From: a virus
DNA length: 25,249 nt
Virus record (IMG/VR): IMGVR_UViG_3300032086_002034
Coordinates: 1 to 25,249 of that record
Reading direction: 5' to 3' (one strand)
Part shown: positions 249-25,249 of the stretch, piece after piece
Layout: the number at the start of each line of letters is the position of its first letter
Position numbering within the stretch: position 1 is the first letter of the stretch
Notes under the pieces: generated by a model
What the model saw: only the letters and a program-made list of their open reading frames with translations
What the model was told of the DNA's origin: nothing
Database searches by the model: none
Position numbers and translations under genes: made by a program

Positions 249-470
249 ATGAAAGAACTACTGGAATATGTAGCAAATAAAAAGAAAAAACAAGCTCATG
301 ACCATTATGAAATGGCAAAAGTATTCGGTCAATGTAGAGGTATGGGCAATCGTAGATACAAAGTACCACAAAAATCTACATACAGAAAAGGTAAATCATA
401 TGCTTATAAAGGTAGATGGGCTTATTACTCTGTAAACCCAACAGGACATTACAAACTAAATACGAACTAA
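249..470 (+). CDS. Hypothetical basic protein (~73 aa)
   Basis: The product begins MKELLEYVANKKKKQAHDHY and its second half is rich in Lys, Arg, Tyr and Gly, suggesting nucleic-acid contact (inference). I chose the ATG at 249 because it follows the previous stop directly; an in-frame ATG at 234 would give 78 aa and a 14-nt overlap. The last codons (YKLNTN) lie inside the first copy of the two-box repeat, so coding and regulatory sequence share bases. No known family recognised. Confidence 0.6.
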   Translation: MKELLEYVANKKKKQAHDHYEMAKVFGQCRGMGNRRYKVPQKSTYRKGKSYAYKGRWAYYSVNPTGHYKLNTN

Positions 471-487
471 TACGGATAATATATATG
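453..487 (+). promoter_or_regulatory. Two-box repeated element, copy 1 (putative promoter/operator)
   Basis: CTAAATACGA (456-465) is followed after exactly 9 nt by GATAATATA (475-483), ending at the start codon of the next gene. Three other copies share both boxes and the same spacing (979-1017, 1829-1868, 3607-3644). Box order, spacing and placement before gene starts suggest a promoter read by a phage-modified polymerase or a binding site for an early regulator. The function is inferred. Confidence 0.6.
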
Positions 488-694
488 AATATGAAATTTA
501 AAGATTACACACCTGAACAAATAAAAGCTAAACTAAATGAAGTTATAGAATTCGAAGCTAAATACGGTTCAAATACTACAACTCAAGCTTGGCGAAAATG
601 GTGTGAATCGATCGATTACCGTAAACGAGAATGGCAATTCAGACAAAGTGTTGCCGAATATGCGAAGTATAATGCTCATAAAGCTTTACTATGA
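485..694 (+). CDS. Hypothetical 69-aa protein
   Basis: Starts at ATG 485 (MNMKFKDYTPEQIKAKLNEV) or ATG 491, directly after the two-box element. An upstream in-frame ATG at 416 lies inside the preceding gene and is unlikely. The sequence is helical and charged, with a 'TPEQIKAKLNEVIEFEAKYG' stretch, and predicted soluble. No domain recognised. The following gene starts four nt before its end (ATGA), which suggests translational coupling. Confidence 0.6.
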   Translation: MNMKFKDYTPEQIKAKLNEVIEFEAKYGSNTTTQAWRKWCESIDYRKREWQFRQSVAEYAKYNAHKALL

Positions 695-813
695 ATAAAA
701 GAAAATTTAATCACAAACCTATATTTACCTTTACTAAGGCTGAAATACAAAGAATTGAAGACTTATATTGGGATAGGTATAATAAAAATACAAAGATATT
801 ATGGCAAAGATGA
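691..813 (+). CDS. Hypothetical 40-aa protein
   Basis: A short ORF with ATGA overlap at its start and overlap with the next gene at its end. The product (MNKRKFNHKPIFTFTKAEIQ and onward) is basic, with a helical 'KAEIQRIEDLYWDRY' segment. Support is the perfect nesting between two neighbours on the same strand. Function unknown. Confidence 0.5.
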   Translation: MNKRKFNHKPIFTFTKAEIQRIEDLYWDRYNKNTKILWQR

Positions 814-998
814 AAGAATTATCAGGTATTGTAAGTACAATAGCCGAAGGAACAAAGAAAGCAATATATAATGATATTGATTGGGAAATTGCAGAATATA
901 ATGCTGAAGGTGACGAATACAATGCTTTACATTCGTACCTCATGGAACAAGTGATAACTAAAATGTATAAAGATTTACAAACTAAATACGACGCTTAA
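801..998 (+). CDS. Hypothetical 65-aa protein
   Basis: The product (MAKMKELSGIVSTIAEGTKK...) is an acidic helical protein. A second in-frame ATG at 810 forms an ATGA overlap with the preceding stop and is an equally good start. The C-terminal codons LQTKYDA fall within the second two-box element. No recognisable family. Confidence 0.6.
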   Translation: MAKMKELSGIVSTIAEGTKKAIYNDIDWEIAEYNAEGDEYNALHSYLMEQVITKMYKDLQTKYDA

Positions 999-1017
999 TG
1001 GATAATATAAACGTATG
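979..1017 (+). promoter_or_regulatory. Two-box repeated element, copy 2
   Basis: CTAAATACGA (982-991), 9 nt, GATAATATAA (1001-1010), then ACGT and the ATG at 1015. Both boxes match the other copies exactly. The left box again overlaps the 3' end of the upstream gene. Putative promoter or operator for the zinc-ribbon-like gene and the RNA region downstream. Confidence 0.6.
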
Positions 1018-1206
1018 AAAAAATGTAAATGTAATAATATAATACCAATCGGCCGAGTAAAATTAGGTTATAATACCTGCATTAATTGCTCAACCGTACA
1101 ACAATACAGCTATGTACCAATCATTGCAAACAAACAAATGCTCGAAGTACAAGTTGTCAGCCAATCTCTAAGTGCCGCGGTACATAAAGCTTGGCGAAGA
1201 AAGTGA
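1015..1206 (+). CDS. Small zinc-ribbon-like protein (63 aa)
   Basis: The N-terminal half carries CKC at residues 4-6 and CINC near residues 22-25, joined by 'PIGRVKLGYNTC'. This is the spacing expected of a short treble-clef or zinc-ribbon knuckle such as DksA/TraR-type or phage C4 fingers. The C-terminal half (AAVHKAWRRK at the end) is basic, consistent with binding nucleic acid. It follows a two-box element and precedes the structured RNA region. The zinc site is seen; the DNA- or RNA-binding role is inferred. Confidence 0.6.
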   Translation: MKKCKCNNIIPIGRVKLGYNTCINCSTVQQYSYVPIIANKQMLEVQVVSQSLSAAVHKAWRRK

Positions 1207-1479
1207 GGTAGTCTGGAAGGACGAGTAGCTTAATTAGGTGTATGTGGTGCCGAATATCGACGGATATGAGCGAGCGTACGGAAGTGTATTACACACATAA
1301 GTGAATTGCCAAAAGACAGTATAAACAGATAAAAGAGCGAGCGCTGATAAATCATTGCTCTTCATTCCAGTTCTGTCCACCTCACACTTGGGCGTGATAT
1401 GGATTGCGAGACAGTATCTTAGCCGATATACGGGCAAGACAGTATCTCAAACGCAGGTTCGATTCCTGCCACGTCCACT
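1207..1479 (+). other. Non-coding structured stretch with tRNA-like parts
   Basis: About 270 bases without a credible CDS, in a region where genes otherwise abut. GTGAGGT (1203-1209) pairs perfectly with ACCTCAC (1379-1385). A hairpin of eight pairs joins 1333-1340 to 1355-1362. GGACGAGTAGCTTAATTAGG (1219-1238) looks like a tRNA 5' half, with T8, A9, A14 and G18G19 in place. A T-arm and acceptor strand close the region at 1453-1476. AGACAGTAT occurs three times (1314, 1409, 1437). This may be an interrupted tRNA, a decayed tRNA cluster or a dedicated structured RNA. Confidence 0.5.
1390..1477 (+). tRNA. tRNA-like gene, possibly degenerate class II (Leu, TAG)
   Basis: GGGCGTG (1390-1396) pairs with CACGTCC (1470-1476) over seven positions with one G-T. 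The T-arm GCAGG/TTCGATT/CCTGC (1453-1469) is canonical. A five-pair stem (1414-1418 with 1425-1429) encloses TTAGCC, where TAG would be a Leu anticodon. The 88-nt length suits a long-variable-arm tRNA. Against it: position 8 is A, G19 is C, and the anticodon loop has six bases. No CCA is encoded. The 3' half could instead pair with GGACGAG at 1219 (six of seven pairs). A working tRNA is unproven. Confidence 0.4.
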
Positions 1480-1635
1480 ATGAAACAACCAGATGCGAAG
1501 AAACATTTTTATGTGTCTATTCTGAAGAGTACAGTAAGAATAGTCGGGTATGCGCTGATACCTTTCAACATCACAGCAGCGGTAAGTACATTAATAATCT
1601 CCGAAGCTATCGGAATAATTGAAGAAACAGTATGA
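1480..1635 (+). CDS. Small membrane protein (51 aa)
   Basis: ATG at 1480, three nt after the end of the tRNA-like element, opens a 51-codon ORF whose TGA overlaps the next ATG (ATGA at 1632). The N-terminus is basic (MKQPDAKKHFYVSILKSTVR). It is followed by one or two hydrophobic stretches (IVGYALIPFNITAAVSTLII), and the end is acidic (EAIGIIEETV). Probably a membrane protein with its basic end in the cytoplasm; holin-like or host-modifying roles are only guesses. Confidence 0.55.
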   Translation: MKQPDAKKHFYVSILKSTVRIVGYALIPFNITAAVSTLIISEAIGIIEETV

Positions 1636-1835
1636 TACCAAAAAATATGTATATGTGGGTACTAGATTTCGAAGATGGAACAGTACACAAGTATGATGTC
1701 TCAGAAGTATTTTGGGATGATGATTATCAACATGAAGATTTTCTATCCGATAATTACCACAACGCAAGTAATTGTGAATGGATGTTAACCGAAGCATTTG
1801 ACTATAACGGTGTAGATAATCCAATTACAAGCTAA
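1632..1835 (+). CDS. Hypothetical acidic protein (67 aa)
   Basis: Overlaps the preceding membrane ORF by ATGA. The product (MIPKNMYMWVLDFEDGTVHK...) is strongly acidic, with 'VFWDDDYQHEDF' and 'ASNCEWMLTEAFDYNG', and is predicted soluble with a beta-rich N-terminus. Small acidic early phage proteins often bind host enzymes, but nothing specific is recognisable here. Its end touches the third two-box element. Confidence 0.6.
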   Translation: MIPKNMYMWVLDFEDGTVHKYDVSEVFWDDDYQHEDFLSDNYHNASNCEWMLTEAFDYNGVDNPITS

Positions 1836-1868
1836 ATACGAATTAACTTAGATAATATAAACGATATG
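1829..1868 (+). promoter_or_regulatory. Two-box repeated element, copy 3
   Basis: CTAAATACGA (1832-1841), 9 nt, GATAATATAA (1851-1860), then ACGAT and the ATG at 1866. The boxes and spacing match the other copies, while the 9-nt spacer (ATTAACTTA) differs, as expected if only the boxes are read by a protein. Most of this copy is intergenic, so coding constraint does not explain its conservation. Confidence 0.65.
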
Positions 1869-2096
1869 ACTAATTTATACAAACTATTAAAACCAAAATT
1901 CAAAAAAGCTTTGAATTCAAACTGCAGAAAGTATGACTCTGCTCAAAGAGTTAAATACCTTCTAATGTCTAAAGCATCATGGAATGAGCTAACAATTACT
2001 GAAGCTAAAAATTTATTTCTATGGTCTGACGTAAGCAATAATCAACTCACTGTTTACGATTTATTATATGGCGAAAATATTATAAAACAACAATAA
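1866..2096 (+). CDS. Hypothetical basic protein (76 aa)
   Basis: Starts MTNLYKLLKPKFKKALNSNC directly after the third two-box element. It is basic in the first third and mixed hydrophobic/charged after, predicted helical and soluble. The stop overlaps the next start by one nt (TAATG). No family recognised. Confidence 0.6.
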   Translation: MTNLYKLLKPKFKKALNSNCRKYDSAQRVKYLLMSKASWNELTITEAKNLFLWSDVSNNQLTVYDLLYGENIIKQQ

Positions 2097-2335
2097 TGAA
2101 ATATACTGACGCAACCAAAGAAGCCGCTGCTATACACATCTGGTCAAAACTGAAATCGATCGATTGGAAAATAGATGATTTGCAGTACGAAATCGATATT
2201 AAAAAATGGTATCCGATTATTAAACCTGAAATGAATCAAGACATTCTTGACGGTAAATTACAGGAAAAAACAATGTTACAATACATTGCTTCCTTAATAG
2301 AAAAAGATTATAAAATAAAAATAGATTTAATTTAA
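2096..2335 (+). CDS. Hypothetical 79-aa protein
   Basis: MKYTDATKEAAAIHIWSKLK opens a Lys/Ile-rich helical protein that overlaps the previous stop by one nt. No catalytic motif, Cys cluster or membrane segment is visible. It sits within the uniform run of small early genes and is probably co-transcribed with them. Confidence 0.6.
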   Translation: MKYTDATKEAAAIHIWSKLKSIDWKIDDLQYEIDIKKWYPIIKPEMNQDILDGKLQEKTMLQYIASLIEKDYKIKIDLI

Positions 2336-2337
2336 TT

Positions 2338-2547
2338 ATGGCAAGAAATATGAGCTATTGTGCAGCCGAAAATACCCGAGACTGCATGGAACAATTACTT
2401 AACTTAATAGAAACGGGTGACAAAAATGATGTGTTTGATGAGCAACCACCTCATAATTACGAAGCTAGAGCAATTGAAGACATTGCTTACTTAGCCGAAG
2501 AACTAGCTAGGGCATGTAACCATTTAATTGATACTCATGGCAACTAG
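2338..2547 (+). CDS. Hypothetical 69-aa protein
   Basis: The leader TTTAATTATGG lacks a Shine-Dalgarno site. The product (MARNMSYCAAENTRDCMEQL...) is acidic, with a long predicted helix around 'ARAIEDIAYLAEELARACNH'. It overlaps the next gene by 11 nt. Function not recognisable. Confidence 0.6.
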   Translation: MARNMSYCAAENTRDCMEQLLNLIETGDKNDVFDEQPPHNYEARAIEDIAYLAEELARACNHLIDTHGN

Positions 2548-3031
2548 AAATATGACAATGGTAATACCTCTTGATAGGTATAAAAAAGGCTATTGTAATC
2601 CTGCAAACTATGAAGACTATAGCTGTGTAAATATGTATTTACATCACGATGGTTATCCTGAATGGCAAGGTGTGCAATTAGCTAACTGGCTGAAAACCAA
2701 TAACTTTGCTGACGAAACAAGAGCTGCAGCGAAATTAGTGCATGACCATTATTACGACAGTTGTTATTTGCATGATAATTTTGATGACGTTGACCACCAA
2801 TATACTTATATGGTATTTGTCGGTACACTTCAAAACAGAATTGCATGCTATAATAGGTATAACCACGATGTAGTATTTGATATGACACCTGATGAAATAC
2901 TTGAAAAGTATGAAGACAAAACGTTAGAGTATACTGATTTTGCTAATGACGAAACTAGATTTAAGCAAGGTACTAATGAAGACGTAAAATACCACGCAAA
3001 TAAATTATTAACATTATTACAAAAATTTTAA
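2537..3031 (+). CDS. Hypothetical phage protein (164 aa)
   Basis: I use the ATG at 2537 (MATRNMTMVIPLDRYKKGYC); a TTG nine bases upstream is less likely. The protein is rich in Asp, His and Tyr, with 'HHDGYPEWQGVQLANWL' near the start and several 'HDHYYD'-type clusters. The arrangement resembles uncharacterised conserved phage proteins I have seen, but no named domain can be assigned. It may bind metal through the His/Asp clusters (inference). Confidence 0.65.
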   Translation: MATRNMTMVIPLDRYKKGYCNPANYEDYSCVNMYLHHDGYPEWQGVQLANWLKTNNFADETRAAAKLVHDHYYDSCYLHDNFDDVDHQYTYMVFVGTLQNRIACYNRYNHDVVFDMTPDEILEKYEDKTLEYTDFANDETRFKQGTNEDVKYHANKLLTLLQKF

Positions 3032-3032
3032 A

Positions 3033-3266
3033 ATGGAAAAACCAAAATGGTTCGACGGTGCATGGTACACCGAAGGCGACAAAGTAACAAATCCATTTAG
3101 TGGCGAAAGCTATGAACTAAATGGTGCAGAGTTGAGTATGTATGATTTTATTATGGGTGCTCAAATGTTCGGCAATATGTCGGATAAAATGATTGACGAC
3201 GTGCAAAAAGCATTGAGTTGGTTTAGAAAAAATAACCCTAAAGCCTATATGGTATTATTAGATTAA
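3033..3266 (+). CDS. Hypothetical 77-aa protein
   Basis: MEKPKWFDGAWYTEGDKVTN opens a protein with the phrase 'WYTEGDKVTNPFSGESYELN', a beta-hairpin-like N-terminus, and a helical C-terminus ending 'KAYMVLLD'. Small conserved proteins of this pattern occur in marine phages; their role is unknown. It begins two nt after the previous stop. Confidence 0.65.
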   Translation: MEKPKWFDGAWYTEGDKVTNPFSGESYELNGAELSMYDFIMGAQMFGNMSDKMIDDVQKALSWFRKNNPKAYMVLLD

Positions 3267-3268
3267 TT

Positions 3269-3613
3269 ATGGAAAATACAAACATGAACAAAGTGCTCGG
3301 TTATTACGGAGCAGAAATATTTACAGAATGGACAGAAGATGCAACTTACTGCATGGAAACTGTTTACACAGCAGATGACTACGACGTGTTCTGGTGTCAT
3401 CCTAAAGATGAAGCATTACCTATATTTGAAGACATATATTACTATGCTGAAAATACAGTTAGTGCATTTGAAGATGCTTTGAAGGCAGGTGAATCAATTT
3501 ATATTGACGAACATTTATATAACGAAATAGATGTTGAAGATATTATTGATGAGATAGCTGAGGCTATGGACCCTGAAGAAGTTGATGGCGAATTATTAGA
3601 TACTACAAACTAA
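3269..3613 (+). CDS. Hypothetical acidic protein (114 aa)
   Basis: Starts MENTNMNKVLGYYGAEIFTE; a second ATG at residue 6 is possible. It is very acidic, particularly the last 40 residues (DVEDIIDEIAEAMDPEEVDG), so it might act as a DNA mimic or bind a basic partner (inference). No domain recognised. Its stop lies within the left box of the fourth two-box element. Confidence 0.6.
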   Translation: MENTNMNKVLGYYGAEIFTEWTEDATYCMETVYTADDYDVFWCHPKDEALPIFEDIYYYAENTVSAFEDALKAGESIYIDEHLYNEIDVEDIIDEIAEAMDPEEVDGELLDTTN

Positions 3614-3644
3614 ATACGAATGGACTTGGATAATATAAGCGATG
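3607..3644 (+). promoter_or_regulatory. Two-box repeated element, copy 4
   Basis: CTAAATACGA (3610-3619), 9 nt, GATAATATAA (3629-3638), then GCGATG. Here the right box lies inside the first codons of the following gene (M-D-L-D-N-I-S), so a promoter here would give a transcript starting within that ORF or serve the ligase gene further on. This is the last copy I found in the window. Confidence 0.55.
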
Positions 3645-6140: not shown

Positions 6141-6758
6141 ATGTCACAAAGAAATTTTAAATATCTACATGATAATAGAATTATATACGGGAGAACTCCA
6201 ATCACGGATGTGCCTACCGAATCAACTGATATATATGATTATTATGAAAACGGTACATACGAGTGTTATGCTTTATTCAGAAGTAAAGCAAAGATCACTA
6301 CATTTAAAAGTTTAAAATGGCATTTTTTAGTTATTCAACACCTTAACACTGAGTTAAATTTAAAACAACTTAGAAAAGTTTTTGAATATATAGCTAATAT
6401 TAAAAATAATTTCGTTACCTTTACAATGTCTCGTGGTGCATTTGACAAATTAGTTAATGATGTATTTGCAACAGATGCAGAACGTCCACCTCGTAATCGT
6501 ATACGTAAAGTTATATTTAAACCAAATAAGATTCTCACATTGTCTGAAAAACTTTCAATTGTGGGCCAACTGATTGGTAAAAGTAAAATGGTTACACAGG
6601 ATATGATTTATGACGCTATGTTAAGCATTAACGAAGACAAACAAACCATAACATATAAAAAGCTTGCTGAGCATTTTGATTGTTCTACACGAACTATTTA
6701 CAGAAATATTGGCAACCAACTTAAACTTGAAAAAGAATTATTGAATAAAGAACTATGA
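6141..6758 (+). CDS. HTH DNA-binding protein (putative regulator or replication accessory)
   Basis: A 205-residue basic protein. The last third carries a clear helix-turn-helix: 'TITYKKLAEHFDCSTRTIYR', about residues 172-191, with the TxRTIYR recognition-helix pattern of HTH_23/MerR-like or replication-initiator winged helices. The first two thirds (MSQRNFKYLHDNRIIYGRTP...) are of unknown fold. It ends in an ATGA overlap with the sigma factor gene, so the two are probably made together and may control phage transcription jointly. A replication role cannot be excluded. Confidence 0.65.
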   Translation: MSQRNFKYLHDNRIIYGRTPITDVPTESTDIYDYYENGTYECYALFRSKAKITTFKSLKWHFLVIQHLNTELNLKQLRKVFEYIANIKNNFVTFTMSRGAFDKLVNDVFATDAERPPRNRIRKVIFKPNKILTLSEKLSIVGQLIGKSKMVTQDMIYDAMLSINEDKQTITYKKLAEHFDCSTRTIYRNIGNQLKLEKELLNKEL

Positions 6759-7519
6759 GAAAATTTAATATTCAGAACTACGTAAGATATAAAGAAGACG
6801 TAGAACGAACAATCAAAGCAGTTAGAAAACCAGTTGACGGTGATTATACTAAGTTAACTAATGATGAGATTACTAAAAACTTTTTACCGTTAGTTATTAC
6901 TTTGGCAATGAAACAATCAACATCTGATCAAGCATCAGGTGTATTAAGTATTCTTGATTTATTTCAAGAAGGTAATGCTGGATTAGTTGCTGCAGTAAAC
7001 AAATTGGATAGAGCGCTTTTAGCTGAGTCTGACGACCAGGAAAAAACTATTAAGTCATTTCTATCAAAAAGAATTAAAGGAGCAATACGAAGAGCCGTAG
7101 ATATAAACAGAGGCGACATACGCATTCCTGAGCATAAGCTAAATGAAATACGTAGAAATCCTAAAGATGAAAAAATGGTTTCAATGTTTTTCAATAGCGT
7201 GTTCAGTAGTATTGATGATAAACCTGCTGATGATGAAAATATGGCTTATCAAGTTATCGATAAGTCTGAACCATATAACATTGCTTTACTTAATGCATAC
7301 CTATTATCATTGATGAAACAACACTGTACACCAACACAATATGATGTATTAAGATTAAGCTTTGGATTAGACTGTGATAAACATTCTGCAAATGAAATTG
7401 CAGACAAATTAGGGATCAGTGTAAGCACTGCTCACGTACGTATTTCACAGATAAAACGGGATGCTATACAAGCTCTCGTCGACAACGTAGATAGTACGCA
7501 AGTACTTGATTACCTGTAA
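6755..7519 (+). CDS. Phage RNA polymerase sigma factor (sigma-70 family)
   Basis: Directs host RNA polymerase to phage promoters. Region 2 is visible at about residues 40-116, with the core-binding helix 'LDLFQEGNAGLVAAVNKLD' (68-86) and the -10-reading segment 'FLSKRIKGAIRRAVD'. 'RIPEH' at 123-127 marks the start of region 3. Region 4 spans about 190-243, with an HTH in 'SANEIADKLGISVSTAHVRI'. At 254 aa it lacks region 1.1 and resembles group 3 sigma factors. It is coupled to the HTH gene by ATGA and followed by a hairpin terminator. The four two-box elements are candidate targets (inference). Confidence 0.9.
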   Translation: MRKFNIQNYVRYKEDVERTIKAVRKPVDGDYTKLTNDEITKNFLPLVITLAMKQSTSDQASGVLSILDLFQEGNAGLVAAVNKLDRALLAESDDQEKTIKSFLSKRIKGAIRRAVDINRGDIRIPEHKLNEIRRNPKDEKMVSMFFNSVFSSIDDKPADDENMAYQVIDKSEPYNIALLNAYLLSLMKQHCTPTQYDVLRLSFGLDCDKHSANEIADKLGISVSTAHVRISQIKRDAIQALVDNVDSTQVLDYL

Positions 7520-7522
7520 GTT

Positions 7523-7545
7523 ACGGTAGCAAATACCGTTTAAGT
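7523..7545 (+). terminator. Hairpin, putative intrinsic terminator
   Basis: ACGGTA (7523-7528), loop GCAAA, TACCGT (7534-7539), then TTTAAG. The stem lies just after the sigma factor stop in the 54-nt gap before the recombination genes. The T tract is short, so termination may be partial; an attenuator or mRNA-stability hairpin is the alternative. Confidence 0.5.
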
Positions 7546-15003: not shown

Positions 15004-16727
15004 TGTGGAATAACGATTGGAAAAAGAATGAGGATTACCCTAGTTGGGGTGATACAGACGTATATAAGAAAACAATTGCTGGCGGTTATCTTGTAGGAGA
15101 TGAATCACCACGTGATGCTTATATGCGTGTAGCTACAACTGTAGCGAAGCGTTTAAATCGTCCAGAACTAGCTGAAACTTTTTTTGAATATATATGGAAG
15201 GGTTGGCTATGTTTAGCGTCTCCTGTGCTATCTAATACTGGTACAGATCGAGGTTTGCCTATATCATGCTTTGGTATTGATGTTGGTGATTCGATATATG
15301 AGATTGGAATGAAAAACTTAGAGATGATGCTACTTGCAAAACACGGCGGTGGAGTTGGCATCGGTGTAAATATGATTAGACCCGCCGGAGCTAAAATTAC
15401 AGGTAATGGAACATCTGACGGCGTTGTGCCTTTTGCTAAAATATACGATTCAACTATACTTGCCACAAATCAAGGATCTGTCCGAAGAGGAGCTGCAAGC
15501 GTTAATATTAATATTGATCATCCCGACTTTGAAGAATGGCTGGAAATACGAGAACCTAAAGGAGACATTAATCGTCAATCGCTCAACCTCCACCAGTGCG
15601 CTGTGGTCGGCGATAAGTTTATGCGAAGACTTGATGCTGGAGATAAAGAAGCGAGGAGGTTATGGGGTAAGCTACTTCAAAAACGTAAAGCAACTGGAGA
15701 ACCTTATATCTTATTTAAAGGAAATACAAACAAAAATAACCCAGACGCTTACAGAAAGCATGGGTTAAAAGTACATATGACAAATATCTGTAGTGAGATT
15801 ACATTGCATACTGATGAGTCTCATTCATTTGTTTGTTGTTTATCATCATTAAATTTAGCCAAGTATGATGAATGGAAAAACACAAATCTAATTTACGATA
15901 GTATATGGTTTTTAGATGGCGTGTTAGAAGAATTTATACAAAAATCAAAAGGTAAAGTTGGATTTCATAATTCTGTAAGATCTGCTGAAAAAGGTAGAGC
16001 ATTAGGATTAGGTGTGCTAGGCTGGCATACATATTTACAAGAACAAGGTTTACCGTTTGAAGGATTATTAGCACAATATGAAACTAGAAGAATATTTTCA
16101 CAAATTAAAATCGAATCTGAAAGAGCTTCCATGGCGCTTGCTGAAACTTTTGGCGAGCCTCTTTGGTGTCGTGGCTCTGGGTATCGTAACACTCATCTTC
16201 GTGCTATTGCACCTACTGTCAGTAATAGCAAACTTTCTGGAAATGTCTCTCCCGGAATTGAGCCGTGGGCTGCGAACGTATTTACAGAGCAGTCTGCAAA
16301 AGGTACATTTATTCGCAAGAACCCTACGCTTAAAAAGGTACTCAGACGACATAAAATCGACACGGAAAAAGTCTGGAACAAAATCTTAAAAGATGGAGGT
16401 TCAGTACAAGGCGTAAAAGAGTTAGATGATGTAATGCTGGGTAAGTATAATGATATACCAGCTAAAGAAGTATTTAAAACATTTAAAGAAATTAATCAAT
16501 TAGAATTAGTTAATCAAGCAGGTATACGTCAACAATATATTGACCAATCTGTTTCTTTAAATTTAGCTTTTCCTTCTGTAGCTACACCAAAATGGATTAA
16601 TAAAGTTCATATGGAAGCTTGGAAGAAAGGTATTAAAACTTTATATTATATGAGAACCGAATCTGTTCTGAGAGGTGATATTGCCGATTCAGCAATGGAT
16701 GAAAACTGTTTAGCATGCGATGGATAA
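15003..16727 (+). CDS. nrdA: Ribonucleotide reductase class I large (alpha) subunit
   Basis: Reduces ribonucleoside diphosphates to deoxy forms for phage DNA synthesis. Active-site parts are present: Cys89 in 'GLPISCFG', Asn261, Cys263 and Glu265 in 'TNICSEITL', the second redox Cys at 278/279 ('FVCCLSSLNL'), the radical-transfer pair Tyr548-Tyr549 in 'TLYYMRT', and the C-terminal shuttle CLACDG (Cys569, Cys572). At 574 residues it lacks the N-terminal ATP-cone of cellular NrdA, so it should escape dATP feedback inhibition, as in other phage enzymes. Its last 8 nt overlap the oxygenase gene. Confidence 0.95.
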   Translation: MWNNDWKKNEDYPSWGDTDVYKKTIAGGYLVGDESPRDAYMRVATTVAKRLNRPELAETFFEYIWKGWLCLASPVLSNTGTDRGLPISCFGIDVGDSIYEIGMKNLEMMLLAKHGGGVGIGVNMIRPAGAKITGNGTSDGVVPFAKIYDSTILATNQGSVRRGAASVNINIDHPDFEEWLEIREPKGDINRQSLNLHQCAVVGDKFMRRLDAGDKEARRLWGKLLQKRKATGEPYILFKGNTNKNNPDAYRKHGLKVHMTNICSEITLHTDESHSFVCCLSSLNLAKYDEWKNTNLIYDSIWFLDGVLEEFIQKSKGKVGFHNSVRSAEKGRALGLGVLGWHTYLQEQGLPFEGLLAQYETRRIFSQIKIESERASMALAETFGEPLWCRGSGYRNTHLRAIAPTVSNSKLSGNVSPGIEPWAANVFTEQSAKGTFIRKNPTLKKVLRRHKIDTEKVWNKILKDGGSVQGVKELDDVMLGKYNDIPAKEVFKTFKEINQLELVNQAGIRQQYIDQSVSLNLAFPSVATPKWINKVHMEAWKKGIKTLYYMRTESVLRGDIADSAMDENCLACDG

Positions 16728-17529
16728 AATAACATTAGAACAAATATTAGAGCCTGTTGGCGTTAAAAACTTTTTTAAAAATTATTGGAATAAAAAACAT
16801 TTAATAATTAGAAGAAATAAATTCAAAGATTTATTTACTTGGGATGATTTTACAAATTGTTTAAATAAATATCCTTATATAAAAGGTTTACAAATTATTG
16901 ATTATACTGATAAAGGAGATGGAAGATGGTGCTTGGATAAAGTTAGAAATAAAAAACTAAATGAACCACTTTTGTCTAAAAAAGAAATATATAATCAATG
17001 GAAACAATTAAATAAAACATTTGTTATACCATTTGCAGAATATGAAAAAGAAAAATTAACTGATATATGTTTTGAGTTTGAAAAATATTTTGGTAGTGGT
17101 CAAGCAAATATATACGCTTCGCCAAAAGAAAATTCAAAATCTTTCCCTGCTCACGCAGATCAAACAGAAAATTTTTTATTTCACACTGAGGGTAAAACTA
17201 AATGGACAATATATAAAGAATTTATACCAAGTAAACCAAATGAAATTTTAGATCAATTTATTCTAGAACCGGGTGATTTATTATATATACCACAATATCA
17301 GTATCATAAAGTAGATACAATAGGGCCAAGAATATTAATTAGTATACATTTTAAAAACAAAAAAAATCAAGCTTTAGATAATTTTAAAATAACAACTATT
17401 GAAAATAACCCGAGAGATAGATGGTATAATTGGAAACCTTATAAAGAAATAAAAATAAAGAAAACATTACAACATCCAAGAATGAAATCAGCAACTTGGA
17501 AAAAACCATATTTTAATAATTTAAAATGA
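16720..17529 (+). CDS. JmjC-like/Cupin_4 Fe(II) 2-oxoglutarate-dependent oxygenase
   Basis: A 269-aa protein with the double-stranded beta-helix iron site: 'FPAHADQTENFLFHTEGKTK' supplies His145 and Asp147, and 'PGDLLYIPQYQYHKV' supplies His196, with 'EGKTKWTIY' as in JmjC and ribosomal oxygenase (RoxA/NO66-type) proteins. Such enzymes hydroxylate amino-acid side chains in proteins; some relatives act on nucleic-acid bases. It overlaps the nrdA stop and the next cupin start, forming one operon with the glycosyltransferases. The very Lys/Asn/Ile-rich composition of this stretch may reflect recent acquisition. The substrate cannot be deduced. Confidence 0.8.
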   Translation: MDKITLEQILEPVGVKNFFKNYWNKKHLIIRRNKFKDLFTWDDFTNCLNKYPYIKGLQIIDYTDKGDGRWCLDKVRNKKLNEPLLSKKEIYNQWKQLNKTFVIPFAEYEKEKLTDICFEFEKYFGSGQANIYASPKENSKSFPAHADQTENFLFHTEGKTKWTIYKEFIPSKPNEILDQFILEPGDLLYIPQYQYHKVDTIGPRILISIHFKNKKNQALDNFKITTIENNPRDRWYNWKPYKEIKIKKTLQHPRMKSATWKKPYFNNLK

Positions 17530-17871: not shown

Positions 17872-18534
17872 ATGAGTTTAAGAATATTTATAGGGCATGA
17901 TTCCCGATATAAAGACGCAACTAAAGTTTGCGAAAAATCAATTAAAGATCATTTTCCAGAAGCAAATATAACTTGGCTAGATAAATCTAAATTAAAAGAA
18001 GCTGGTATATATGGCAGAAAAGACGTAGAAGGAGAATCTACAGAGTTTTCTTTTACAAGATTTTATGTGCCACTTTTATGTAACTATGAAGGTAGAGCTA
18101 TATTTTGCGATAATGATTTTTTATGGAAATGTGATATTAATCAAGCTAAAAGATTTATTAAAGATAAACCATTAGCAGTTGTAAAGCACGATGACTATGA
18201 AGCTGAAGAAAATAAAATGAATGGTATAGTAAATAAATCATATCCAAAAAAGAACTGGTCAAGTTTAATGGTATTTAACAATGCTTGGTTTAAAAATAAA
18301 CTTACTAAAGAATATTTAGATAATGCAAGCCCTGAGCAACTTCATGAATTTCATTTTATACATGAAGATAACATAGCGCCTATACCCAAACAATATAATT
18401 GTTTAGTTAATGTAAAAGGCTATGATATGGACAATGCTAAAGTATTACATTATACAAATGGCGGGCCTTGGTTTGAAAAATATAAAGATGCAAGTTATTC
18501 ACAACTATGGTGGAAAGTATACAACAGCTTGTAA
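17872..18534 (+). CDS. Glycosyltransferase, GT8-like
   Basis: The start at ATG 17872 gives 220 aa (MSLRIFIGHDSRYKDATKVC...). The GT-A fold pattern is clear: 'FSFTRFYVPLL' (59-69), the metal-binding D-N-D in 'AIFCDNDFLW' (76-85), 'NWSSLMVFNN' (128-137), and the closing 'VLHYTNGGPWF' (191-201) that matches the HYT-x-x-x-PW element of GT8 enzymes. It transfers a sugar from a nucleotide-sugar to an unknown acceptor: phage DNA base, virion protein or host glycan. It overlaps the GT29-like gene by 28 nt. Confidence 0.8.
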   Translation: MSLRIFIGHDSRYKDATKVCEKSIKDHFPEANITWLDKSKLKEAGIYGRKDVEGESTEFSFTRFYVPLLCNYEGRAIFCDNDFLWKCDINQAKRFIKDKPLAVVKHDDYEAEENKMNGIVNKSYPKKNWSSLMVFNNAWFKNKLTKEYLDNASPEQLHEFHFIHEDNIAPIPKQYNCLVNVKGYDMDNAKVLHYTNGGPWFEKYKDASYSQLWWKVYNSL

Positions 18535-19313
18535 AAAATAAACGTATTGTATTTGTTGGTAACTCTGTTGAGATTATGAAACATAAGCTCGGCAAAGTTA
18601 TTGACGAATATGATATTGTTGTAAGATTTGGAAGAGCTATTGAAGCAACTCCCTTGCAAGAAGAGTCATTGGGTACTAAATGTGACATATGGATTACTGG
18701 TCAATTTAGAGCACCGGCGTTTAATAATGTTAAAGAAAAATTTAATACAGGTAAATTTAAAAATACTAAAATATTAATTAATAGATGTAGAGGCAATTTA
18801 AAATTAAAAAATTGGGTATTAGAAGATAGGCTACCTAAAGATTTTCCTGATTATACACAAATGTATTCTGACAATGATTTAGTTAGAATAATGAAAGAAT
18901 TTGACAAAGACCTTTTAGGCATAAATGATTATAGACCTAGCGCTGGCTTTATAAGTATTATATGGTTTATAGATAAAATAAAAACCTATAAAAGTATTGA
19001 TCTTATAGGTTTTGATTTTTTTCATAAACAAGCTGATGTATTGCCAAAAGATAAACGTGGTAAATTTAGCAATTGTAATCCGCATAGCTGGCATTTGCCG
19101 GTATATATATTGAATAGACCTGCTCACGATAGAGATATGGAAGAGCAGTATATGAGTTTTTTACACAGAAGAAAGTTAATAAATTGGCATAAATTAAGCA
19201 ATCTAGAAAGACAGAAATTAAAATATACAGGTTGGATGCACAATATGAAAATAATTAAGACTGCGCCAAGATTTTCAACAAGTTCAAAGATCCTACCAAA
19301 AGCTCAGCAATAA
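18507..19313 (+). CDS. GT29-like glycosyltransferase (sialyltransferase-fold)
   Basis: Pattern elements of family GT29 appear in order: 'RIVFVGNSVEI' (13-23) and 'YDIVVRFGRA' (35-44) like sialyl motif L, 'GTKCDIWITG' (56-65), 'YRPSAGFISIIWFI' (142-155) and 'IDLIGFDFF' (164-172), followed by His-rich 'PHSWHLPVY'. Family members move sialic acid from CMP-sialate to a glycan; bacterial and viral relatives may use other nonulosonic acids. The 268-aa protein has no signal peptide or membrane anchor, so it acts in the cytoplasm. It ends the plus-strand block and meets a minus-strand block tail to tail. Confidence 0.75.
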   Translation: MVESIQQLVKNKRIVFVGNSVEIMKHKLGKVIDEYDIVVRFGRAIEATPLQEESLGTKCDIWITGQFRAPAFNNVKEKFNTGKFKNTKILINRCRGNLKLKNWVLEDRLPKDFPDYTQMYSDNDLVRIMKEFDKDLLGINDYRPSAGFISIIWFIDKIKTYKSIDLIGFDFFHKQADVLPKDKRGKFSNCNPHSWHLPVYILNRPAHDRDMEEQYMSFLHRRKLINWHKLSNLERQKLKYTGWMHNMKIIKTAPRFSTSSKILPKAQQ

Positions 19314-21857: not shown

Positions 21858-24800
21858 TTATCTACGATTAAATGTTCTTGTTCTTCTTTTGAATGTTCTT
21901 GTCCCACGCTTTGGTTTAGGTGCCACTTGAGACGTTGTTTTGGGTTTTTTTCTGCTTGTATTAGGTTGAGGCATTCCTAATTCCCATGATCCCCATCCCA
22001 TTAATAATGCTGTGCTTTGCCACCATTCTGCTTCTTCACTCATTGCGGCTTCTATATTTTGCGCTTTCCTTAATGCCCTATCTAATGGAAAGTTAAATGC
22101 TGCTGAGCTAAGTTGTGCTGTAGCTGATAATGCAGGGTTATTAAGTTTAGGGTCAAATAAATTATCTTTTGTTATATATTTTGCTGAATAACCTGCTCCT
22201 CTTAATTTTGTAAATTTAGAATACAACGGAGGTGAAATTGTTAATGCCTTCCAAGCTGAACTCTGAAAATCAGGATTAGGTTTTTCACTTTGCTTAGCAA
22301 TATCAAGAGCTATGTTTTTTATACCAACTACCGCATTACCGGTTAACCCAGACCCTCTTAATAATGAATCAGCCATACCGTGACCAATATTACTATATCT
22401 TGCCGTTTCTTTTTCATCTGTATCATCTACACCAAACGCTGTTGCAAATAATGCTTTTTGCAATGCGTTGAATATAAAGTTTTGTATAGTACTATAATAT
22501 ATAATCTGTGTTATTTTTTCTTTTTTATCGCCTCTACCAGCAATTAGATCCTGCGCATTTCTTTTTATGATCCTGTTATACTGCATTGGTGTATTAGCAA
22601 ATGCTAACATAAATCTACCTAATCCCCCAGCTTGTTGCTCAGATATTTTATCTGGCCTACTTGATTGCTGTGTTCTTTCAGTAATTTCTTTAAAATCTAA
22701 AAATGCTTTTTCTGCAGCTTCTTTTTCAGACATTCCTTCTTTCTTGTACCTATTTAATCTATTTCTGTACATTGTGGCACCACCGGAAGCAATAGCAAAA
22801 CTATCTGCTATTTTTGTAAATACAAATCCTTTATTAAGTAATAAATTTATTGTACCTTGTACTCCGCCTTTTTCTGCAGCTAATGCTAATTCACTTTCAT
22901 TTATATTAATTTTATTTCCGCCCCTTCTATCTTTTAAATATTCTGAATTAAATATATCTTTAAAGTCTTTCCAATATTGTTTTTGATTTGCAAAAGCTTT
23001 TGCTGCTTGTAACGGATTATTATCCGAAAAATTTATATAGTTTATATTAGATATTGTCTGTAATACTGCTGATCTAGTGTTTAAGAACATAATTGCACCA
23101 ACAGAACCATTAACCCAATCATTCCATTTTTGTACAGTAACATTACCTCCCCATCTTCTATTTTGTCCACTCTTCATTCTGCCTAATGTTTTAGTAACAT
23201 TATCTACCCAATTTTGACCATAAGCTGCTTTTAATTTAAGTAAATTTTCTTTACTAAATATTTGATCAACATTATTTTGCCATACCTCTAAATGTTTTGT
23301 TCTTTTAGTTGTATTTAATAATGCGGCCATATCCATAGCAATATTACTAGATGCCCATGTATCTTTAGGCTTAGCATAGCCATCACCTTTTGTTATTCTA
23401 ATTAATTCATTTGCAAATAAATTTAATTCAGGATTTGAATTAACTTCTTTTACAAGTGATTTTAAATCTGTTTTACTTATACCAGGTATCTCATATCCTA
23501 ATTTATTCCATACTGCAACTCTTACAGCTTGCTCATTAGTATAATCGCCTCCTTTAGTAAACTTTTTTAATGTTTTAGGTACATTACTTAATTGATTTTT
23601 TAAAGCTCTAAAATCATTTGATAATGCAGTTCTTTCTCTTGTAATATTTTCTACAGCTAAATTATATGGTTCATATAATGCTTTTTGATAAAACTCTAAT
23701 TGTTTTTCACCTTGCTTACCCTTAGCTAATGTTTTATGCATTAAGCCTGCAAAATCTTCAGCACCAGCTGGTATAAAATAGTCACCAAAAGATTTTTTAA
23801 CTTTGGCTGCTCTAGCATCTGCTTTTGCTTGATTAAATACTTTTTCAGCGCCAATACCTGTAGACTTTTCTAAATATTGATTAAATTCTGTGCTTAATTC
23901 TCTAGATGCTGCAACTTCAATTTGTTGTTCTTTTATTTTAGCATCCTCAACTTTTGCTTTTTCAAGCGTTTGAACACCTTCTTTAATTTTAGGGTATCTT
24001 TGTTTTACAAATAAATCTATATTTGCTTTTGCTTGTGCAGGTGTTATTTCGCCTTTTAATTGTTCAAATATTAGTTCAGCTTGTTTTTCATAAACAATCT
24101 TGTCATTTTCAAATTTTTTAGGAACTTCAACATTATATTTTTTAGCATGCGTAATTCCCTCTTGTGTTATCTTATTTGCATTTAATTTAACAACCTCATT
24201 ATATAATCTTATATTTGGGCTAGGTACTTCTTTCCAAGATATTTTACCGTCTATAGCTTGTTGTACTTTTTCTGCTAAAAATGGATGTAGCTCCGATTTA
24301 GATTTGTATTTAACACCATTAATAGTGTATGCTGCGTCAACTATGGAATGACTAGATCCTTTAAAGCCGGTTGATAAAGAAAGTTGAAAATAATTTTCAC
24401 CAAGCCAATCAGCCATTTCTTGTTTTGTTTTAGCATTTTTTACTTTTGCATAAACACCAACTAGTTTTGCAAACTGACCGTGTTGTAGTACATGCTCTTC
24501 TAATACTTTTTTAGCGCCTATTTCAATACCTCTAAGTTGTGCCATGTTCCTTGTGCTTGCACCATTAGCGTTTTGATTATATACTACTAAACCTGTAGCT
24601 TGAGGATCAACCTTATACATTTCAGTAATAATATCTAATGCTGTTTTAAAATTCTTTTTAAAAGCACCAATTTCTTTTAAATTTTTATTTAAGTTTTTAG
24701 TTTTTTGGCTTTTAATAACTATAGTCCATTCCGGCGCTTTACTAGTTCCTGGTCGTATATCTAAACCTAATTCTTGTTTTAATTTTCTTAACGCAGCAAC

Positions 24801-25249
24801 TTCTAATGCATTATTTGTTTTTATAGCATCCAATGTAGCTTTATCTAATGCTTTACTAACAAAAAAACTTCCGTCTCGCATTCTTAAAATACTATTACCC
24901 CCTGGCGCAAGATTACTTGGAATTATAAAAAATGAAGCTCCAGGAACATCTCTAACTATTTTATCAAAACTTCTTGCAATTTTTTGAACTGTTTTAGCAT
25001 CTTTAACTAATTCACCTCCAAACTCATTTTTAACCACTTGAAATTGTGTTAAAGGTCTAGAAGCTAATAAATCCGCTTTTCCATCTGCTAATTTTTGAAT
25101 TAAATTTTCAGGATGTTTAGGATTTTTTCTAGCAACATTATTTGTTATAGCTCTACCAATTTCAGCCTGTAAAGATTTTACAAATGTTCTTTGATTTCTG
25201 TTAGGCGCTACACCAATACCTACAAGTTCTTTAAATAGATCCGATACTT
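21858..25249 (-). CDS. Very large late protein (partial), polyvalent/internal virion-type
   Basis: The frame stays open to the right edge: codons upstream of the GTG at 25037 continue (ending FQVV, beginning near VSDLFKELVGIGVAPNRNQR), so at least about 1,129 residues are present and the start lies outside. No enzyme active site is evident. Long Lys-rich helices fill the middle. A conserved C-terminal region reads 'FTKIADSFAIASGGATMYRN', 'ITERTQQSSRPDKISEQQAG' and 'GRFMLAFANTPMQYNRIIKR', like the domains (for example LPD38-type) of giant phage polyvalent or internal virion proteins that enter the cell with DNA. The very basic tail repeats TFKRR/TFNRR. A virion role is inferred from size, position and pattern. 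Confidence 0.75.
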   Translation of the reverse strand, partial: VSDLFKELVGIGVAPNRNQRTFVKSLQAEIGRAITNNVARKNPKHPENLIQKLADGKADLLASRPLTQFQVVKNEFGGELVKDAKTVQKIARSFDKIVRDVPGASFFIIPSNLAPGGNSILRMRDGSFFVSKALDKATLDAIKTNNALEVAALRKLKQELGLDIRPGTSKAPEWTIVIKSQKTKNLNKNLKEIGAFKKNFKTALDIITEMYKVDPQATGLVVYNQNANGASTRNMAQLRGIEIGAKKVLEEHVLQHGQFAKLVGVYAKVKNAKTKQEMADWLGENYFQLSLSTGFKGSSHSIVDAAYTINGVKYKSKSELHPFLAEKVQQAIDGKISWKEVPSPNIRLYNEVVKLNANKITQEGITHAKKYNVEVPKKFENDKIVYEKQAELIFEQLKGEITPAQAKANIDLFVKQRYPKIKEGVQTLEKAKVEDAKIKEQQIEVAASRELSTEFNQYLEKSTGIGAEKVFNQAKADARAAKVKKSFGDYFIPAGAEDFAGLMHKTLAKGKQGEKQLEFYQKALYEPYNLAVENITRERTALSNDFRALKNQLSNVPKTLKKFTKGGDYTNEQAVRVAVWNKLGYEIPGISKTDLKSLVKEVNSNPELNLFANELIRITKGDGYAKPKDTWASSNIAMDMAALLNTTKRTKHLEVWQNNVDQIFSKENLLKLKAAYGQNWVDNVTKTLGRMKSGQNRRWGGNVTVQKWNDWVNGSVGAIMFLNTRSAVLQTISNINYINFSDNNPLQAAKAFANQKQYWKDFKDIFNSEYLKDRRGGNKININESELALAAEKGGVQGTINLLLNKGFVFTKIADSFAIASGGATMYRNRLNRYKKEGMSEKEAAEKAFLDFKEITERTQQSSRPDKISEQQAGGLGRFMLAFANTPMQYNRIIKRNAQDLIAGRGDKKEKITQIIYYSTIQNFIFNALQKALFATAFGVDDTDEKETARYSNIGHGMADSLLRGSGLTGNAVVGIKNIALDIAKQSEKPNPDFQSSAWKALTISPPLYSKFTKLRGAGYSAKYITKDNLFDPKLNNPALSATAQLSSAAFNFPLDRALRKAQNIEAAMSEEAEWWQSTALLMGWGSWELGMPQPNTSRKKPKTTSQVAPKPKRGTRTFKRRTRTFNRR

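Follow-up and report, generated by a model that had tools for sequence, protein, structure and literature searches.

Phages are known to bring transcription under their own control in several ways, and short repeats before their genes do not all have the same role. Among the established cases of a phage sigma factor with promoters of its own are T4 (gp55) and SPO1, and the middle promoters of T4 combine a MotA box near -30 with a TATAAT-like -10 box. The stoperators of mycobacteriophage L5 and the start-associated sequences of cluster K phages are repressor sites or translation-linked repeats. SaPh711_gp47 of phage 7-11 and gp36 of phiEco32 are also phage sigma factors with promoters of their own, and the late promoters of 7-11 (GTAAtg-16-aCTA) are used by the host core RNA polymerase (RNAP) with the phage sigma (PMC8948821). 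In this study, we analyzed 25,249 nucleotides of viral DNA (positions 1 to 25,249 of IMG/VR record IMGVR_UViG_3300032086_002034; this whole stretch is called the window), in whose early gene region a two-box element, CTAAATACGA-N9-GATAATATA, is repeated. We believe from its sequence and placement that this element is very probably the phages' own promoter.

The element has four exact copies in the window, at 456-483, 982-1009, 1832-1859 and 3610-3637, all on the + strand, where dinucleotide shuffles gave a chance expectation of 0.05 copies, and allowing up to 3 mismatches brought up no further copy in the window. The first-pass annotation of this DNA had described the four two-box copies at coordinates that proved right within a few bases. 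Its fixed 9-nt spacer with differing bases was found again in 4/4 copies, with a pairwise spacer identity of 0.11-0.67. The boxes were 96-100% identical among the window copies, and the 40-nt flanks 20-50% (28% expected from composition). Box 1 shares bases with the 3' end or stop codon of the gene before it, and three reading frames are involved (genes 234-470; 801-998; 1632-1835 and 3269-3613). Because the flanks are unrelated and box 1 lies in three frames, neither duplication nor protein constraint explains the element. Protein-coding constraint, already discounted by the earlier annotation, was excluded by the frames, and duplicated gene ends, which it had named as a possible source of the copies, were excluded by flanks at or near chance identity and by the unlike spacers.

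The element proved to be longer than first noted, the outer part of the left box having been overlooked. The logo of exact copies from many contigs, repeated with one-box selection, gave the full form TTACAAACTAAATACGA-N7-TR-GATAATATA-N2-YR, with a length of about 38 bp. When copies were selected by GATAATATA alone, AAYACGA stood at the exact distance in 328/509 copies; with selection by AAYACGA alone, the right box was present in 511 of 762. The left box reaches further upstream, to TTACAAA, so that TACAAA lies 19 nt upstream of GATAAT. The earlier argument against a -35/-10 pair, which rested on too short a spacing, was therefore wrong. In the logo, a Y/R step is conserved exactly 7 nt after GATAAT, and TTACAAA stands at the -35 position. 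If Y/R is taken as -1/+1, GATAAT falls at -12 to -7, CTAAATACGA at -31 to -22 and TTACAAA at -38 to -32, which argues for a sigma-type promoter with an extra box. With the start sites of the window copies placed at this step, the predicted promoters are as follows:

449..487, + strand: predicted promoter copy 1, TTACAAA-CTAAATACGA-N9-GATAATATA; predicted +1 at G487, 4-nt leader to the ATG at 491.
975..1013, + strand: predicted promoter copy 2; predicted +1 at G1013, ATG at 1015.
1825..1863, + strand: predicted promoter copy 3; predicted +1 at G1863, ATG at 1866.
3603..3641, + strand: predicted promoter copy 4; predicted +1 at G3641, longest downstream open reading frame (ORF) from ATG 3620, within the spacer.

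Copies 1 to 3 would thus have leaders of 2-4 nt. Homologues of the gene behind copy 2 (1015-1206) were directly downstream of a motif copy in 49 cases, and those of the gene behind copy 3 (1866-2096) were downstream of one in 38 cases. Among the relatives, the leader from the predicted start was 0-7 nt in 144/572 copies and exactly zero in 69. The distance from element to start codon varied from 0 to more than 60 nt, and a translation signal was rejected on this ground. In F. psychrophilum, leaderless mRNAs make up only 5.5% (PMC9723704). If the predicted starts are true, these phages would make many near-leaderless early mRNAs.

The exact element was observed in at least 119 stretches of IMG/VR. 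All of the records examined were metagenomic and possibly partial. Each of the 45/45 IMG/VR records checked held 1-16 copies, nearly all on one strand, and the reversed control was almost absent. Unbiased gapped-word counting in the long records rediscovered the element on the + strand only and found no comparable motif on the other strand. The motif search of related phages proposed in the first-pass annotation thus gave non-random placement, on the sense strand and upstream of early genes. The element marks a large clade of uncultured phages, and their hosts are probably marine Bacteroidetes, as suggested by primase similarity to Cellulophaga and Tenacibaculum phages and by matches to metagenome-assembled genomes (MAGs).

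Only four stretches with the exact element were found in 84,980 bacterial and archaeal species genomes. Two of them are Bacteroidetes MAG contigs with several copies, looking like binned phage, the third is a contig with phage-like genes in a Prochlorococcus single-cell assembly, and the fourth is a Flavobacteriales chromosome. On the Prochlorococcus contig (L124, 64 kb and phage-like), a single copy at 3098-3131 (-) lies directly before ORF 2688-3086; the sigma-profile matches of this assembly were weak and cellular-sigma-like. On the Flavobacteriales contig (L125, 1.39 Mb), the exact copy at 323-356 (+) lies about 100 nt before a TerB-like gene (456-1337), near parA/parB. This host gene could have been placed under a phage-responsive promoter.

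Two adjoining genes of the window are candidates for reading the element:

6141..6758, + strand: helix-turn-helix (HTH) protein, 205 aa, Pfam HTH_11; stop codon overlapping the start of the sigma gene (ATGA); may take part in reading the upstream box.
6755..7519, + strand: sigma-70 family factor with regions 2 and 4 (Pfam Sigma70_r2/r4, PHROG 351); proposed reader of the element.

The sigma profile matched solved SigA/RpoD structures (E 1e-9), and tblastn of sigma 6755-7519 gave no match in 50,697 phage records. The element was observed upstream, in sense, at 119/120 IMG/VR sigma loci holding at least 4 kb of upstream sequence. The totals over the sigma loci were 732 sense, 7 antisense and 0 reversed-control copies in 2.47 Mb; copies are densest 4-9 kb upstream of sigma, and there are next to none downstream. 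At the single locus lacking the element (L269), the HTH gene is truncated and the genes upstream lie on the opposite strand; this is probably a rearranged or chimeric contig. Sigma was carried by 34/45 motif records; in each of the remaining 11, the contig ends at the motif block, before the expected place of sigma. No copy was found in 12 records of sigma-less Bacteroidetes phages, a small set of 253 kb (Cellulophaga phi10:1 and relatives, Tenacibaculum JQ, Flavobacterium elemoA and gut clones). In eleven long records, the early block lies on one strand, with small genes carrying the element followed by HTH, sigma, ERF, exonuclease and primase, and the remaining tens of kb, including the late genes, lie mainly on the other strand. 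In L027 and G053, a copy stands directly before the sigma gene. Because sigma, HTH, ERF, exonuclease and primase form a conserved block, common descent could account for part of the co-occurrence of element and sigma. Right after the sigma gene of the window, at 7523-7539 (+), there is a terminator-like hairpin, ACGGTAGCAAATACCGT, followed by a T-rich tail.

Compared with the known systems, the element resembles the promoters of 7-11 and phiEco32 in being bipartite and repeated before phage genes, and probably also in the use of a phage sigma with the host core RNAP. Their promoters are late and have short boxes, whereas the element here is about 38 bp long, has an extra box at -31 to -22 and lies in the early block. 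The likeness to T4 middle promoters is the extra box near -30 (here placed by the predicted start) with a TATAAT-like -10; the box sequence and position differ, TTACAAA is also found at -35, and a phage sigma is present. The HTH protein had no MotA match by Pfam or fold, in searches that were not aimed at a MotA profile. L5 stoperators and cluster K repeats are likewise numerous, short and oriented before phage genes, but the element here has -10 geometry and a variable start-codon distance. Flavobacterium phage elemoA (Elemovirus) shares a block of ERF, exonuclease and primase/helicase opposed to the late genes; in contrast, it gave no sigma match and no element copy in the first 50 kb of its record. 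The flavobacterial sigma-A consensus is -33/TAnnTTTG (PMC9723704), and the element shares with such promoters the probable host group and the position of the -10 region. TAnnTTTG was near only 13/639 copies, and a flavobacterial sigma-A promoter was rejected. A generic sigma-70 promoter scan gave 44 matches vs 44.5 in shuffles and was uninformative. In our opinion, the element is of the same kind as the known phage-sigma promoters, and its extra box, length and early location make it a variant.

We consider it fairly probable that the element is an early or middle promoter read by the host RNA polymerase with the phage sigma, possibly together with the HTH protein. The call of a promoter is strong, and we infer the protein reader from the company that the element keeps. 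The idea of promoters for a phage-programmed polymerase, raised in the first-pass annotation, gained strong support from the sense-only placement before early genes, the -10 geometry, the co-occurrence with sigma and the absence from sigma-less Bacteroidetes phages. In the proposed mechanism, the host core polymerase with the phage sigma 6755-7519, possibly with HTH 6141-6758, would recognize a promoter of three parts: the -35-like TTACAAA (about -38 to -32), the extra box CTAAATACGA (-31 to -22) and the -10 box GATAAT(ATA) (-12 to -7). Transcription would start at the conserved Y/R step, so that leaders in the window would be very short, and would proceed rightwards from each copy through a few early genes. 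By read-through it would also reach the HTH-sigma pair, which would thus amplify itself. It is a more tentative idea, and rather doubtful at present, that the near-invariant extra box between -35 and -10 is read jointly by sigma and the translationally coupled HTH as a two-protein specificity unit.

The variation of the element bears on its reader. Copies within a genome were more alike than copies between genomes (0.558 vs 0.499 when permuted, sd 0.004), which points to a shared trans-acting reader, and base composition may contribute. The -12 base is usually G, and it is T (giving TATAAT) in the sub-clade of L146 and L188. Genome-specific variants include AAGGTTAACACGA in L238 and a TTCGAA-type left half in L227. 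The HTH gene was present at 75% length or more in 147/154 sigma loci, adjoining sigma, so co-occurrence cannot separate the two proteins. A fold search with a confident HTH model gave no significant match, and sigma factors were among the weak matches. We put most weight on sigma as the reader, with HTH as a likely partner.

Several results weigh against sigma as the reader or against the promoter call itself. In the Mantel test, the correlation with motif variation was 0.11-0.14 for sigma and 0.26-0.27 for HTH, with a flank background of 0.16; ERF and EXO did as well for box 1. Covariation with the motif thus does not single out sigma and slightly favors HTH, and changes in the sigma recognition helix were not simply aligned with changes in the boxes. 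Since the sigma gene itself lies downstream of the element, another starter is needed for the first round of transcription, and a host-like promoter for this round was not found (TTTG-N17-21-TAnnTTTG was not enriched over the reversed control). The earlier claim that every copy stands before a start codon held for copies 1 to 3 and needs correction for copy 4, whose longest ORF (ATG 3620) starts inside the spacer, upstream of the predicted start site G3641. The homologue of this gene in at least one relative (L023) starts just after box 2, the -10 box, and the window gene may have lost its normal start codon by decay. A candidate late promoter, TTAAAA-N14-GTAATAAT, was also found before late genes, with 7 copies at exact spacing on the - strand and 0 on the + strand in eleven genomes (- strand copies in G046, G040, G049, G048, G047, G043, G055 and G056), and it could be the true sigma target. 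A position weight matrix for this late motif was dropped after it drifted into A-rich coding sequence.

Some of these results suit a reading in which the element is read mainly by HTH 6141-6758. As an activator like MotA, this protein would bind CTAAATACGA near -27 and recruit the host polymerase, whose own sigma would contact GATAAT, and the phage sigma would serve other, late promoters. The upstream box is where a MotA-type box would sit, the gene adjoins sigma in nearly all loci, the candidate late motif lies on the - strand, and motif variation tracks HTH better than sigma (partial r 0.23-0.26 conditioned on sigma or ERF). However, HTH also correlates with the flanks (0.16), so this signal is partly phylogeny or composition, the fold search gave no match to MotA, and no HTH gene was found in the 68,850 bp of G055 (L227), where sigma and a variant of the element are both present. 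We consider this reading unlikely. The first-pass annotation had offered the HTH protein in another role, with the copies as its operators; the position of HTH beside sigma and its somewhat better tracking of the motif speak for a part of HTH, but a -10 element with Y/R at the right distance would have no place in a plain operator. As stoperator-like sites of a phage repressor, the copies would be repeated, asymmetric, oriented and intergenic as observed, with an HTH protein encoded nearby. This is very improbable in view of the -10 box and Y/R step at promoter distance, the copies immediately before start codons, often 0-7 nt upstream, and the window annotations, which hold no lysogeny gene.

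It is quite improbable that the unmodified host polymerase, with a primary or alternative sigma, uses these early promoters and that the phage sigma is late-only, as in 7-11 and phiEco32. The element does lie in the first gene block, ahead of sigma, and in phage 7-11 the early promoters use host sigma-70 and the phage sigma serves the late ones (PMC8948821). Against this, the element does not match flavobacterial sigma-A TAnnTTTG, it is confined to four exact stretches among the cellular genomes, two on binned-phage-like contigs, its copies drift in concert within genomes, and sigma-less flavophages lack it. A virion-borne or unrecognized phage RNA polymerase would fit the information content, very high for a sigma promoter, and a giant virion protein of 2.1-3.3 kaa (thousand amino acids) is encoded on the late strand; we give this hardly any probability. 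The multisubunit RNAP (msRNAP) beta domain was found in 0 of 40 records (positive controls were detected), and T7-like RNAP (PF00940) in 0/40, a search without a positive control that gave signal. The giant proteins have no consistent DxDxD motif, and the geometry is sigma-like. A T7-like RNAP promoter was rejected: the shared TACGA is a chance likeness, the spacing differs and no RNAP was found.

Other features of the window were also observed. At 1223-1478, tRNA-like ends, GGACGAGTAGCTTAATTAGG ... GGTTCGATTCCTGCCACGTCCA, lie far apart; ARAGORN found no tRNA there, and the only tRNA match from Rfam, at 1390-1477, was weak (21.4 bits). In several relatives, a motif copy is immediately preceded by a tRNA-like 3' end. 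The C-terminal part of a giant late protein, with no Pfam or PHROG match, is encoded at 21858-25249 (-), and the late-strand proteins of 2.1-3.3 kaa in the relatives may be its full-length counterparts. The gene at 16720-17529 encodes a JmjC/cupin-like protein, and that at 18507-19313 a protein similar to glycosyltransferase family 29 (sialyltransferase), here in a phage.

Transcription control in Bacteroidetes phages seems little known, with no relevant paper in the literature searched, and among the top-ranked open-licence papers there was no earlier description of the motif. The analysis offers a specific promoter sequence, the base at which transcription is predicted to start and one or two proteins that may read the promoter, with conservation across more than 100 of the genomes examined; a single purified sigma and a single reporter are thus enough for a test. 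As a sequence tag, the element can also be used to recognize and orient these phages in metagenomes. If the joint reading by sigma and HTH is true, a two-protein specificity unit, of which the literature searched held no description, would be used across a large group of uncultured phages.

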